Shown: in pieces, positions 15,964-53,502 of the stretch
How the letters are laid out: the number at the start of each line of letters is the position of its first letter
Numbering within the stretch: the first letter of the stretch is position 1
Origin: Caulobacter sp. SL161
GTDB taxonomy: Bacteria > Pseudomonadota > Alphaproteobacteria > Caulobacterales > Caulobacteraceae
Assembly: GCF_026672375.1 (NCBI RefSeq)
Contig: NZ_JAPPRA010000001.1
Coordinates: 2,728,001 to 2,792,000 of the forward strand
Reading direction: 5' to 3'
DNA: 64,000 nt
Notes under the pieces: generated by a model
What the model saw: the letters and a program-made list of their open reading frames with translations, nothing else
The model's database searches: none
Told to the model about the DNA's origin: nothing
Translations under genes and position numbers: made by a program

Positions 15964-18525
15964 ATGCTCGCGGCGAACGCCCTTCCTCCTCAGTTCCAGG
16001 CCTGGTTCGCCAAACGCGGGTGGACCCCGCGCGACCATCAACTGGCGATGCTGGAAAAGGCGCGGGCCGGTCGCGGGGCCTTGCTGATCGCCCCGACCGG
16101 CGGCGGCAAAACTCTGGCGGGCTTCCTGCCCAGCCTGATCGAACTGGCCGAGCGTCCCCCGCGCAACACTCCGGCCGGCGTCCACACCCTCTATATCTCG
16201 CCCCTGAAGGCGCTGGCAGTGGACGTCGAGCGCAACCTGCTCACCCCCATTCGCGAGATAGGCCTGCCGATCGTCGCCGAGAGCCGCACCGGTGACACCG
16301 GCGAGAGCCGCAAGGCCCGCCAGAAGGTCCGCCCGCCCGACATCCTGCTGACCACCCCCGAGCAACTGGCGCTGTTCTGCGCCTGGGAAGGCGCGCGCGA
16401 GTACTTTTCCGACCTGCGCTGCGTCATCATCGATGAGGCCCATGCGATCTGGCCCAGCAAGCGCGGCGACCTCCTGGCGCTGGGCCTGTCGCGCCTGCAG
16501 CAGTTCGCGCCCGGTATGCGCCGGGTGGGGCTTTCGGCGACGGTGGATGATCCAGACTTGGTGCGGAAGTGGCTGGGCGTGAACAAAAACCCTCCCCCTA
16601 GCGGGGGAGGTGTCGGCGCAGCCGACGGAGGGGGAAGTTCTGCTGACCTTGCCCCTTCCCCCTCCGGCGCTTCGCGCCACCTCCCCCCTGAGGGGGAGGA
16701 TTTCTCCATCGACCTCGTGCTCGGCGCGGGCGGCGCCCAGCCTGTCGTCGAGGTCCTGGTCTCCGGCGGCCGCGTGCCGTGGGCCGGCCACACGGCCGAG
16801 CACGCCATGGCCGAGGTCTACGACATCATCAAAGCGGCCAAGACGGCCCTCGTTTTCGTCAATACCCGCTTCCAGGCCGAGTTCGCGTTCCAGCGCCTTT
16901 GGGAGCTGAACGACGAGGGCCTGCCGATCGCCCTGCACCATGGCAGCCTGTCGGCCGAACAGCGCCGCAAGGTCGAGGCGGCGATGGCGCGGGGCGAACT
17001 GCGCGCGGTGGTCTGCACCTCGACCCTGGACATGGGCATCGACTGGGGCGACGTTGATCTCGTCATCCAGCTGGCCGCCCCCAAGGGCGCCTCGCGGATG
17101 GTCCAGCGCATCGGTCGCGCCAATCACCGTCTGGACGAGCCCAGCCGCGCCCTGTTCGTGCCCGCCAGCCGCTTCGAGATGCTGGAGTGCCGCGCGGCCG
17201 CCGACGCCATTCTGGAGAACCACCTGGACGGCGAACCGCCCCGTATCGGCGGCCTGGACGTTCTGGCGCAGCATATCATGGGCTGTGCGTGCTCGGAGCC
17301 GTTCAAGCTGACCGACCTCTATGACGAGGTCCGCTCGGCGGGGCCTTACGCCGAGCTGACCTGGGAGGATTTCGAGGCCGTGGTCGACTTCGTCTCGACC
17401 GGCGGCTACGCGCTTCGCACCTACGACAAGTTTCGGCGGATCGTGCAGACCGCCGACGGCCTCTGGACTGCGCGCAACGCCCAGGCCCGCCAGCAGCACC
17501 GCATGAATGTCGGAGCCATCATCTCCCCGGCGATGATCAACATTCGGGTTGGCGGCGGGCGGAGGCCCGTGGGAGGACGCAAGATCGGCGAGGCCGAGGA
17601 AGGCTATTTCGAGCAGCTGACGCCGGGCGACACCTTCGTCTTCGCCGGCCAGGTCTGGCGCTACAACAGCCTCGTCGGGGCCGACGCCTTTGTCTCGCCC
17701 GCGCCCAACGATGATCCGAAGATGCCGAGTTGGGGCGGCTCGAAATTCCCGCTGTCGACCTATCTGGCCGGTCGCGTGCGGCAGATGATGCATGACGAGC
17801 GCGAGTGGAGCGCCCTGCCCGGCGACGTGCAGGAGTGGCTGTCTTGGCAGAAGATCCGCTCGGCCATTCCGGCGGAGGGCGAGATGCTGCTGGAGACCTT
17901 CCCGCGCGGGAAGCGGTTCCACATGGTCTGCTATCCGTTCGACGGGCGCCTTGCCCACACCACCCTGGCCATGCTGCTGACCCGCCGGCTGGACCGGCTG
18001 GGCGTCGGCCCGCTGGGCTTTGTGTGCAACGACTACGCGCTGAACCTGTGGTCGCTGCGCCCCATGGACGATCTGGATCTGGACGAGCTTTTCGCCCAGG
18101 ACATGCTGGGCGACGACCTTGAGGCTTGGCTGGACGAGAGCTTCATGATGAAGCGCTCGTTCAAGCACTGCGCTCTGATCGCGGGTCTGATCGAGCGCCG
18201 CCACCCTGGCGCCGAGAAGTCCGGGCGGCAGGTGACCTTCTCGACGGACCTGATCTACGACGTGCTGCGCAAACACCAACCCGACCACCTGATGCTGCGC
18301 TGCGCGCGGCTCGACGCGGCCACGGGCCTGCTGGACATCGCGCGCCTGGGCGACATGCTGACCCGTGTCAGCGGGCGCATCCGGCACGTGGCGCTGGATC
18401 GCGTCTCGCCCTTCGCTGTCCCGATGATGCTGGAGATCGGCCGCGAACGGGCTCCGGGCGACGCCGCCGGCGAGATGATCCTGGCCGAGGCCGAAGCGGA
18501 CCTGATCGCCGAGGCGCGGCCGTGA
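15964..18525 (+). CDS. Ligase-associated DNA-damage-response DEXH-box helicase (Lhr-like)
   Basis: From ATG at 15964 the protein has 853 residues. It shows Walker A LLIAPTGGGKTLAGFLPSLI, the DEXH box VIIDEAHAIWPSKRGD (DEAH), motif III GLSATVDDPD, motif IV/V FVNTRFQAE and CTSTLDMGIDWGDVD, and motif VI QRIGRANHRLDEPSRA. These are followed by the winged-helix and core domain of the Lhr subfamily. The family acts with the phosphoesterase PdeM, an exonuclease and an ATP-dependent ligase; here only PdeM is adjacent, overlapping by four bases. About 38 residues at roughly 210-247 are encoded by an inverted C/G-rich repeat (16591-16699). The start is the first ATG in frame ahead of the helicase domain and lacks a strong ribosome site. 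Confidence 0.9.
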   Translation: MLAANALPPQFQAWFAKRGWTPRDHQLAMLEKARAGRGALLIAPTGGGKTLAGFLPSLIELAERPPRNTPAGVHTLYISPLKALAVDVERNLLTPIREIGLPIVAESRTGDTGESRKARQKVRPPDILLTTPEQLALFCAWEGAREYFSDLRCVIIDEAHAIWPSKRGDLLALGLSRLQQFAPGMRRVGLSATVDDPDLVRKWLGVNKNPPPSGGGVGAADGGGSSADLAPSPSGASRHLPPEGEDFSIDLVLGAGGAQPVVEVLVSGGRVPWAGHTAEHAMAEVYDIIKAAKTALVFVNTRFQAEFAFQRLWELNDEGLPIALHHGSLSAEQRRKVEAAMARGELRAVVCTSTLDMGIDWGDVDLVIQLAAPKGASRMVQRIGRANHRLDEPSRALFVPASRFEMLECRAAADAILENHLDGEPPRIGGLDVLAQHIMGCACSEPFKLTDLYDEVRSAGPYAELTWEDFEAVVDFVSTGGYALRTYDKFRRIVQTADGLWTARNAQARQQHRMNVGAIISPAMINIRVGGGRRPVGGRKIGEAEEGYFEQLTPGDTFVFAGQVWRYNSLVGADAFVSPAPNDDPKMPSWGGSKFPLSTYLAGRVRQMMHDEREWSALPGDVQEWLSWQKIRSAIPAEGEMLLETFPRGKRFHMVCYPFDGRLAHTTLAMLLTRRLDRLGVGPLGFVCNDYALNLWSLRPMDDLDLDELFAQDMLGDDLEAWLDESFMMKRSFKHCALIAGLIERRHPGAEKSGRQVTFSTDLIYDVLRKHQPDHLMLRCARLDAATGLLDIARLGDMLTRVSGRIRHVALDRVSPFAVPMMLEIGRERAPGDAAGEMILAEAEADLIAEARP
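16591..16699. repeat. C/G-rich inverted-repeat element inside the helicase reading frame
   Basis: The left copy begins CCTCCCCCTAGCGGGGGAGG and ends CGGAGGGGGAAG. The right copy is the same unit in reverse orientation (CTTCCCCCTCCGG ... CTGAGGGGGAGG). A short spacer (TTCTGCTGACC) separates them. Each copy holds its own small stem (GGCGCAGCCGAC region; GGCGCTTCGCGCC). The encoded peptide is Pro/Gly/Ser-rich, unlike its surroundings. Related C-run units occur in intergenic DNA at 47.8 and 53.4 kb. Confidence 0.85.
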
Positions 18526-19229
18526 CACGGTTCCAATCCTCACCCTGCGGCGGCCTTCGCGTTGCGCTCGCCAATGTCGAGGTGATGCTGAGGTGGTCCG
18601 GCGCACTGTGGCTAGAGCGCGAGCGCACGCTGATCGTGGCCGACCTGCACTTCGAGAAGGGCAGCAGCTACGCCGCGCGCTTTGGGCAGATGCTGCCGCC
18701 GTATGACACGCGTGAAACCCTGGATCGGCTCGATCGCGAGATCACCCAGCTGGCGCCCCGGCGGCTGATCTTTCTGGGCGACAGCTTTCACGACGCCGCC
18801 GGCGAGGCCCGGCTGGCCAGTGACGACTACAGTCGGTTGGCAGGTCTGGCTTCGGGACGAGAACTGGTCTGGGCGGTGGGCAACCATGACGCCGATGGCC
18901 CAAGAGCCCTGCCGGGTGACGTGATCGACGAGGCCAGCCTCGCGGGTCTCACGCTTCGGCATGAGCCCTTGCCCGGCGCGCAACCCGGCGAGGTGGCGGG
19001 GCACCTTCATCCCGCAGCCAAGGTGTCCAGCGGGCGCGCCACGGTCCGCCGCCGCTGCTTCGTCACCGACGGGGCGCGTCTGGTTCTGCCCGCCTTTGGC
19101 GCCTATGCGGGCGGCCTGAACATTCTCGACGAAGCCTTTTCCGGTCTATTCGATGGCCCGGTCCTGGCGGGAGCGCTGGGCCCCCAGCGGGTCCACGCGG
19201 TGGGCCTCAAATCCCTTCGACCGGACTAG
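18522..19229 (+). CDS. pdeM: Ligase-associated DNA-damage-response endonuclease PdeM
   Basis: GTG at 18522 overlaps the helicase stop (GTGA), giving 235 residues. The metallophosphoesterase motifs are in order: VADLHFEKGS (D-x-H), LIFLGDSFHD (GDxxHD type), AVGNHD (GNHD) and AGHLHP (GHxHP), which bind two metal ions. PdeM proteins belong to the same DNA-repair gene set as the upstream Lhr-like helicase, and overlapping genes imply coupled translation. The TAG stop at 19227-19229 is the first triplet of a 114-bp palindromic element, so the C-terminus (KSLRPD) may have been set by that insertion. Confidence 0.88.
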   Translation: MTRFQSSPCGGLRVALANVEVMLRWSGALWLERERTLIVADLHFEKGSSYAARFGQMLPPYDTRETLDRLDREITQLAPRRLIFLGDSFHDAAGEARLASDDYSRLAGLASGRELVWAVGNHDADGPRALPGDVIDEASLAGLTLRHEPLPGAQPGEVAGHLHPAAKVSSGRATVRRRCFVTDGARLVLPAFGAYAGGLNILDEAFSGLFDGPVLAGALGPQRVHAVGLKSLRPD

Positions 19230-47627: not shown

Positions 47628-48017
47628 GGGGCGACAGCGCCGGAACGTACTGCGGGCGCGGCGGCCGAGAGGCTTCCCGCGCCCCGATGTGTTTCAGGAG
47701 CGGAGCTCAAATCTAGAAAGCTCGTCTTCCCGCGCGGAATGACGACCAAATGGAGTTCCGAAACGGGTGGATGGCGGCCATGCTCCCTCTCCCACAGGGA
47801 GAGGGTTGGGGAGAGGGGTTACAGTGCCAGACGGAGCGCCGGCACACCGTCAAACCTCGTAGCCCCTCTCCCTCCCACCGCTTCGCGGCGGGCCCCTCCC
47901 TCTCCCTTTGGAAGAGGGATTTACGTCCGCCCAGGGTCGTGAGCAGCCTTGGGCCTCGCTCCAGAAACCCGACCTTCCTACTACCCGCCGGAACGCCGTT
48001 CGCGCGTGCAGGAAAGC
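47628..48017. other. Intergenic region between convergent flgH and dxs
   Basis: These 390 bases hold the C/G-rich repeat at 47783-47922 and otherwise no recognisable gene. A terminator for flgH is not obvious outside the repeat. Confidence 0.6.
47783..47922. repeat. C/G-rich inverted-repeat element, intergenic
   Basis: The left unit has the hairpin CCCTCTCCC-ACA-GGGAGAGGG (47785-47805) followed by TTGGGGAGAGGGG. The right unit is the reverse (CCCCTCTCCC..., CCGCTTCGCGGCGGG hairpin, CCCTCTCCC...). The layout (two inverted copies, each with a C-run stem) matches the elements at 16591 and 53373. Confidence 0.7.
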
Positions 48018-53372: not shown

Positions 53373-53502
53373 ATCTTCCGCCCCCTCCGGCGGCGGACGA
53401 CCGCGCATAGCGCGGTCAGGTGGGGGCAAGTAGGATGACCTCACCCAAAGCTCGCCCCCTCCGCGTCTTCGGCGCTCCTCCCCCGGAGGGGGAAGAAGGT
53501 CG
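53373..53502. repeat. C/G-rich palindromic element, intergenic
   Basis: Between the GNAT and VWA genes two C-run units lie close together: CCCCCTCCGGCGGCGG, the stem GACCGCGCATAGCGCGGTC and AGGTGGGGGC; then CCCCCTCCGCG ... CCCCCGGAGGGGGAAG. These match the words of the elements at 16591 and 47783. The last gives a perfect CCCCCGGAGGGGG-type stem. Confidence 0.65.

Follow-up and report, generated by a model that had tools for sequence, protein, structure and literature searches.

The helicase gene within the window, the 64,000-nucleotide stretch of Caulobacter sp. SL161 DNA analysed here, raises a double question: can a conserved protein carry a palindromic repeat within its reading frame, and how did the repeat come to lie there? 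The source genome (4,015,769 bases in two contigs) is labelled G000 and one of its contigs C1; other G-numbers denote genomes, and L-numbers fetched loci or rows. The gene and its neighbour are as follows.

15964..18525, + strand: lhr-like gene, ligase-associated DNA damage response DEXH helicase (TIGR04121 match)
18609..19229, + strand: pdeM-like phosphoesterase, 3' of the helicase (TIGR04123, 202.3 bits against a cut-off of 150)

The ATG start at 15964 was inferred from the open reading frame, and the profile searches ran on 15970-18525. This frame belongs to TIGR04121 (1060.1 bits; curated cut-off 850), and its DEAD, Helicase_C, WH_Lhr and DEAD_assoc domains all score above their own cut-offs. 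Going by its family name, the phosphoesterase is the helicase's partner. The helicase frame stays open across the whole of a palindromic element made up of these parts:

16587..16703, no strand: whole palindromic doublet, an in-frame insert of ~38 extra residues; two inverted units of ~47 nt each
16591..16610, no strand: left arm palindrome CCTCCCCC-TAGC-GGGGGAGG, exact
16612..16626, + strand: left side hairpin GTCGGC-GCA-GCCGAC (RNA fold; helix covarying between copies)
16627..16637, + strand: central stem, left strand GGAGGGGGAAG (inverted-repeat search, RNA fold)
16655..16665, + strand: central stem, right strand CTTCCCCCTCC (inverted-repeat search, RNA fold)
16666..16678, + strand: right side hairpin GGCGC-TTC-GCGCC (RNA fold)
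16680..16699, no strand: right arm palindrome CCTCCCCC-CTGA-GGGGGAGG, exact

The doublet contains an outer inverted pair (16587-16615 and 16675-16703; 29 nt, 83% complementary) and an inner one (16623-16637 and 16655-16669; 15 nt, 93% complementary). Its predicted RNA fold is a cloverleaf of the outer stem, the two side hairpins and the central stem, with an energy of -84.1 kcal/mol (z -7.8); the DNA fold reaches z -7.0, and for neither molecule was any of 200 dinucleotide shuffles equally stable. In the Lhr alignment the insert follows the SATVDDPDLVRKWL stretch and precedes IDLVLG, a loop that, going by such helicases generally, we take to lie close to where RecA domains 1 and 2 meet. A known structured RNA was considered and rejected: the 19 Rfam matches up to E 1, comprising 18 microRNA models and one snoRNA, all stayed below the gathering score, and we take them as chance matches of a GC-rich hairpin.

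The element is highly repeated. When searched as CCTCCCCCN{1,8}GGGGGAGG, the arm pattern occurred at 155 places in its own genome and at 232 in G005, and the control, the same pattern read backwards, at 0 and none, respectively. Among 199 genomes sampled from Caulobacteraceae, 167 contained the pattern; the control matched between 0 and 2 times in each. Together with the inverted units, the open frame and the fold, these counts bear out the claim of an earlier note on this DNA that a palindromic element lies in frame within the Lhr-like helicase. The fetched own-genome loci included 51 doublets, with arms of 8 bp and a 4-nt loop in the first arm of 44; AAAT formed 72 of their 102 outer ends. 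Among the candidates scored (40 of 140), the closest match to the lhr element was another copy from its own genome (95%). The note had also placed the same family at two further positions in the window:

53375..53500, no strand: degenerate relative of the lhr element (similar fold, z -6.4; blastn E 0.006)
47782..47912, no strand: similarly folding stretch of different sequence (z -7.7; blastn E 2.9)

Both indeed fold alike, but kinship in sequence held up only in part, the 53.4-kb copy being a weak relative and the 47.8-kb stretch giving no significant match.

The side hairpin varies in a concerted manner between copies. In 23 units of one length, 28 cells had changed on both sides of this helix versus 9.3 in shuffles, and the covariation score was 0.243 versus 0.076, values that 0 of 500 shuffles equalled; 99.7% of cells were paired, and slid versions of the helix dropped off. 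Two other counts were unexceptional, those of pairs with changes on both sides (4 versus 3.1 shuffled; 83/500 as high) and of further pair types (7 versus 6.0; 140/500 as high), and the arm helix is uninformative on covariation because it was fixed by how the units were chosen. We take the fold to be kept either by selection or by the element's own way of copying. The doublets also contain few stops: on average 4.68 of 6 frames were open in 40 doublets versus 4.20 after shuffling (highest mean in 50 rounds, 4.55), and 25 of the 40 were open in 5 or 6 frames. The lhr segment is probably a copy of a REPIN-like palindromic element of Caulobacteraceae that is non-autonomous and present in high numbers.

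We then have to ask what the helicase looks like without it. From 37 genomes of the genus, 33 Lhr proteins were counted, leaving out two partial ones (G004, G015), one with N in the loop (G006) and one split over contigs (G025). The loop had at most 12 residues, namely 5-7, in seven of the 33, which represent the empty state; it had 13-24 residues in five, and at least 25 in 21, of which 18 counted as palindromic (fold z at or below -4, or a perfect stem of at least 8). The remaining three long loops fell below this criterion (G012, z -3.2; G016, z -3.9; G035, z -0.4). In Lhr proteins from other families of the order (n = 15), 13 loops were short, one had 13 residues and one (G049) carried an element. 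The named Caulobacteraceae rows (n = 29, two of them duplicating genus rows) comprised 14 short, 3 intermediate and 12 long loops, 9 of the latter palindromic. Outside Caulobacteraceae, the loop measured 2-11 residues in 45 of 45 rows counted. These counts exclude the named rows L105 (13 residues), L106 (5), L112 (partial), L113 (16), L116 (2) and L123 (begins past the loop); the fetched loci were the 30 best matches per protein search plus 20 Lhr regions, and one locus-confirmation list comprised the best 80 of 488 confirmed.

The gap expected by the earlier note upon alignment with orthologues is present, both in the seven genus relatives and in the 45 outside rows counted, and its view that the helicase absorbed ~38 extra residues fits the empty state. 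Among the rows seen, no distant orthologue had the same residues in the absence of a DNA palindrome; the long loop of G035 (42 residues, no palindrome signal) differs in sequence. What the earlier reading missed is that the site is shared: the loop holds an element, often from a different family, in most of the genus relatives counted, and the same pattern recurs in two more genes. Two Brevundimonas Lhr rows bear another family. The stretch preceding the element varies in length between species. Remnants consisting of a single palindrome occupy the loop in G008, G013, G024, L098 and L100.

Every extracted Lhr loop was open in frame, and no broken lhr was found among the complete genus genomes searched. 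Among non-intragenic doublets, by contrast, a length that is a multiple of three is the exception (9 of 40). This difference points to selection on the reading frame. From these observations we infer that the helicase is made and under selection, with the palindromic segment translated as a flexible linker.

Does the element share the history of its host gene? A tree of 98 Lhr proteins was built without the loop, by a quick method and with no bootstrap. Over 87 of its rows, excluding 10 remnants and one masked row, presence or absence of the element required a minimum of 15 changes; with the remnants scored as absent or present, the figure was 18 or 16, respectively. Element families were labelled by hand after automatic typing had left many rows untyped, and the long loops of L087, L108 and G035 remain so. 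Among the 30 typed carriers, family changed 15 times versus a shuffled mean of 17.2 (101 of 1000 shuffles gave 15 or fewer). The family thus tracks the helicase tree weakly if at all, which is compatible with some vertical inheritance. Tree sisters with differing families include G003/G031 and G020/G022.

Between G000 and G001, the flanking DNA is 93-94% identical and the element 79% (86% without gap columns), and identity also falls to 80% in the 60-nt window directly left of the element. Between G001 and G003, the flanks are 85-90% identical and the element 96%. With 40 candidates scored per genome, the G001 lhr element matched at E 1e-20 only itself in G001 and 37 rows (both strands) in G003. 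The history of the element thus differs from that of the host lhr gene. The corresponding elements in the other two host genes, which are described below, are 93% (imuB-like) and 92% (midA-like) alike between G000 and its close relatives, and these look inherited.

Copies inside genes proved few against those outside. In G000, 3 of 87 loci examined were intragenic, lying in lhr, an ImuB-like gene and a MidA-like gene; in G005 it was 1 of 84 within the first 1.9 Mb, again in the MidA-like gene, with an element of another family. The G000 census rests on pattern places listed up to 2.96 Mb of C1 plus part of the remainder, that of G005 on 100 listed places up to ~1.91 Mb, leaving out 1605015 and 1611909. 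The codon model flagged the copies in lhr and the MidA-like gene, and the ImuB-like copy, 28 codons from the start, was recognised by eye; the census may therefore miss copies near gene ends. Two candidates were rejected. The element of L002, 5' of a Polysacc_deac_1 gene (387-aa frame), is in frame but precedes the likely start codon, and L281 of G005, flagged once by the codon model, was unflagged in the final census and by eye lies at a gene end.

One of the two additional hosts matches Pfam Methyltransf_28 (197.6 bits versus 23.3), and we take it to be MidA-like; the other matches Pfam IMS, the impB/mucB/samB family (33.6 bits versus 23.2), and is presumably ImuB-like. Palindromic inserts of at least 25 residues occupied the ImuB-like loop in 24 of 29 rows examined (L209 was excluded, its N-terminus being unaligned) and the MidA-like loop in 17 of 30. 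In all three genes, including lhr, different elements occur at the same loop in other species. Reading phase, taken in the two additional genes at the first CCTCCCC, was 0 in 2, 1 in 17 and 2 in 3 of 22 imuB-like copies, and 0 in 15 and 2 in 3 of 18 midA-like copies. This variation within each gene is most simply explained by more than one event per gene. In two genomes (L223, L231) the ImuB-like loop contains in frame another palindrome, CGCTCATCCC..GGGACCCAGG plus its inverse, which in our judgement resembles the CGTC-type REPs of alpha-Proteobacteria.

Taken together, these data make it probable that a REPIN-like element lies in frame in the Lhr loop as a translated linker, and that one loop each in Lhr, ImuB-like and MidA-like proteins serves as a landing pad at which elements settle, dwindle and give way to others. 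The high-copy element would provide the supply of inserts. One copy would have entered the Lhr loop in frame, to be read as a Pro/Gly/Ser-rich linker. One loop in each of the three proteins would tolerate ~40 extra residues and thereby act as a landing pad, this tolerance at the protein level presumably being the filter. Elements, once gained, would shrink to single-palindrome remnants or be lost, and at an occupied site another family might replace the resident by re-insertion or by recombination between the shared terminal arms; as to which of these two routes, the evidence is mixed. The in-frame position, copy number, short-loop orthologues, shared sites, family differences and side-hairpin covariation are direct observations.

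More tentatively, these few fixed loops may be standing docking sites, in which families are swapped across Caulobacteraceae faster than the host genes diverge, with no linked transposase, making them safe havens for a selfish repeat. If true, the repeat uses the same protein loops as havens in many species. The findings make the old question of why palindromic repeats enter proteins testable in a laboratory model genus: the sites are known beforehand, each offers short loops, remnants and several families, and assays can compare host proteins that have the insert with ones that lack it.

In Lhr, 25 of 27 rows, drawn from several element families, have phase 0 at the start of the element, whereas the imuB-like gene favours phase 1. 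Such constancy may mean a single old insertion followed by recombination rather than repeated insertion. Under this alternative, one ancestral insertion into the lhr loop of Caulobacteraceae descended vertically, the apparent families are products of gene conversion, with intergenic copies as donors acting via the terminal arms they share, and the empty loops are deletions. The single-palindrome remnants, which show decay, and the fact that discordance is greatest in and beside the element speak in its favour. It is at odds with G049, which belongs to another family of the order and bears an element although its close tree kin G045 and L131 do not, with the other element family in the two Brevundimonas rows, with the variable length of the sequence before the element, and with the varying phases in the imuB-like and midA-like genes. 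We regard a single insertion as possible but somewhat doubtful.

A second alternative, that the inserts are retained for use, a strong mRNA hairpin or flexible linker regulating DNA-damage genes such as lhr and the imuB-like gene, seems to us unlikely. Two of the three G000 hosts fall in DNA-damage families (TIGR04121; impB/mucB/samB), and a further doublet (L005:1501-1607, G000:C1:18780-18890) separates the imuB-like gene from a putative error-prone DNA polymerase gene; the best match of the latter's fetched, cut-off fragment is PRK05672, at 609.8 bits and thus below the cut-off of 939. Moreover, many REP-bearing genes reported by Di Nocera 2013 (PMC3733652) act in DNA synthesis or repair, including dnaE2 and recB. 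Against such a use stand the patchy presence of the element among close relatives and the Lhr loop alignment, in which we saw by eye no common peptide beyond the element's own translation; there are also just three host genes, and MidA-like (Methyltransf_28) is not a known repair family. The two repair-related hosts are suggestive of an enrichment, which we do not claim given so few hosts.

Finally, it is highly improbable that the insert stems from faulty assembly or annotation, or that it has disabled the gene: the element is repetitive and G-rich, the G006 loop reads N, and the G004 gene lies on two contigs, its N-terminal piece containing one TAG, yet many separate assemblies show the same in-frame arrangement and the helicase domains score above their cut-offs. 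The N in the lhr loop of the G006 assembly (L058) suggests that short-read assemblies may break at such elements.

A RAYT was considered as the mover of the element and rejected: the source genome has a single Y1_Tnp match, which lacks flanking copies of the element, and no link emerged from the survey of the genus. Y1_Tnp was found in 14 of 41 genus genomes; G005 had none at E 0.001 despite its 232 arm palindromes, and no arm palindromes occurred near Y1_Tnp in 20 loci (fetched stretches of 2.1-3.3 kb). The mover may act in trans or be a diverged RAYT. No target site duplication was apparent, the longest repeat near the flanks averaging 2.29 versus 2.09 with swapped flanks (highest of 200, 2.53), although old copies could have lost such marks. 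At L031:1447-2127 (G000:C1:2115631), a Y1_Tnp transposase gene is flanked by GTGCACTGTCACCGTAATT-type repeats that by eye are unrelated to the element.

How does the element compare with known systems? The earlier note likened it to the palindromic elements of Rickettsia, and rightly so in that both are in-frame palindromic inserts in conserved proteins, absent from some relatives; we liken them by description. According to a review (PMC2229807), the RPE of Ogata and co-workers are fused in frame into conserved proteins and also occur between genes. A difference is that in the two Caulobacter genomes sampled intragenic copies are rare (3/87 and 1/84) and sit in loops where elements from other families occur in other species. 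With REPINs, as portrayed by Bertels and Rainey 2011 (PMC3116915), the element shares the inverted REP doublet, the hairpin or clover fold, the high copy number and single units as remnants, but our genus survey found no associated RAYT. It resembles the CIR of Caulobacter (Chen and Shapiro 2003, as outlined in PMC2229807) in its ~110 bp, two arms plus linker, and abundance. CIRs, as reported there, have stops in all frames and are not inside genes; by description our element differs, with GANTC, the methylation site expected of CIRs, in just 2 of 51 doublets and the 25 of 40 doublets open in 5 or 6 frames. Palindromes also lie within functional coding genes in Nematomorpha mitochondria (PMC6649704); the arms there encode conserved residues, whereas the Caulobacter element adds a loop that orthologues lack.

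The closest comparison is with the REPs of the GTAG and CGTC superfamilies. According to Di Nocera 2013 (PMC3733652), REPs and their dimers occur in frame in DNA repair genes, and different REPs occupy about the same recB site in two Xanthomonas species, which is the nearest precedent in that source for a shared site such as the Lhr loop. CGTC REPs are described there as the main type in alpha-Proteobacteria, mostly inverted dimers, often with 8-bp stems and 4-nt loops and without a dedicated transposase. On that description the Caulobacter element is alike in its 8-bp arms, 4-nt loop (criterion: stem 8-9 bp, loop 4-5 nt), inverted dimers and lack of a transposase link. CGTC stems have, in the same account, almost invariable A-T pairs in the first and second positions. 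Unlike them, the Caulobacter arm stems, if the arm palindrome is taken as the stem, begin CC..GG, which the search pattern itself imposes. REPs of the two superfamilies bear an unpaired GTAG or CGTC motif at one end, and the account admits TGTC and CCTC as variants. GTAG or CGTC was found within 6 nt outside the arms in 0 of 51 doublets. CGTC or GACG occurred inside 49 of the 51, and 54 of 97 units had it at the base of the side hairpin; five doublets contained GTAG or CTAC. The element may be a distant relative of the CGTC superfamily.

In-frame palindromes (RPE), REPs in repair genes and the lack of a transposase in CGTC REPs are already in print (PMC2229807, PMC3733652); the main text of the latter does not name Caulobacter, Phenylobacterium or Brevundimonas. 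Within the literature in our reach, which excluded most subscription papers, we found no description of this repeat family or of the lhr site. New are the repeat family, set apart from CIR and RPE by description, its use of loops that several species have in common, and the swapping of one family for another inside these loops. Alongside the transposase-less repeats of alpha-Proteobacteria described by Di Nocera 2013, ours is a further case, with evidence for replacement at occupied sites.

Some minor observations concern related sequences. At places on C1 of the own genome such as 244846, 339282, 695049 and 2670712, arm palindromes have 7-nt loops like CCTCCCCCGTTTCACGGGGGAGG and are often solitary; these are possibly a second family. 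Lhr itself has a second site of in-frame insertion near query residue 532, where L063, L066, L067 and L058, from four genomes, share a 26-residue insert of closely similar DNA whose hairpin signal is weak (z -1.6 to -3.0). At this second site, G053 (L081) carries a longer insert with a palindromic unit (z -5.0).
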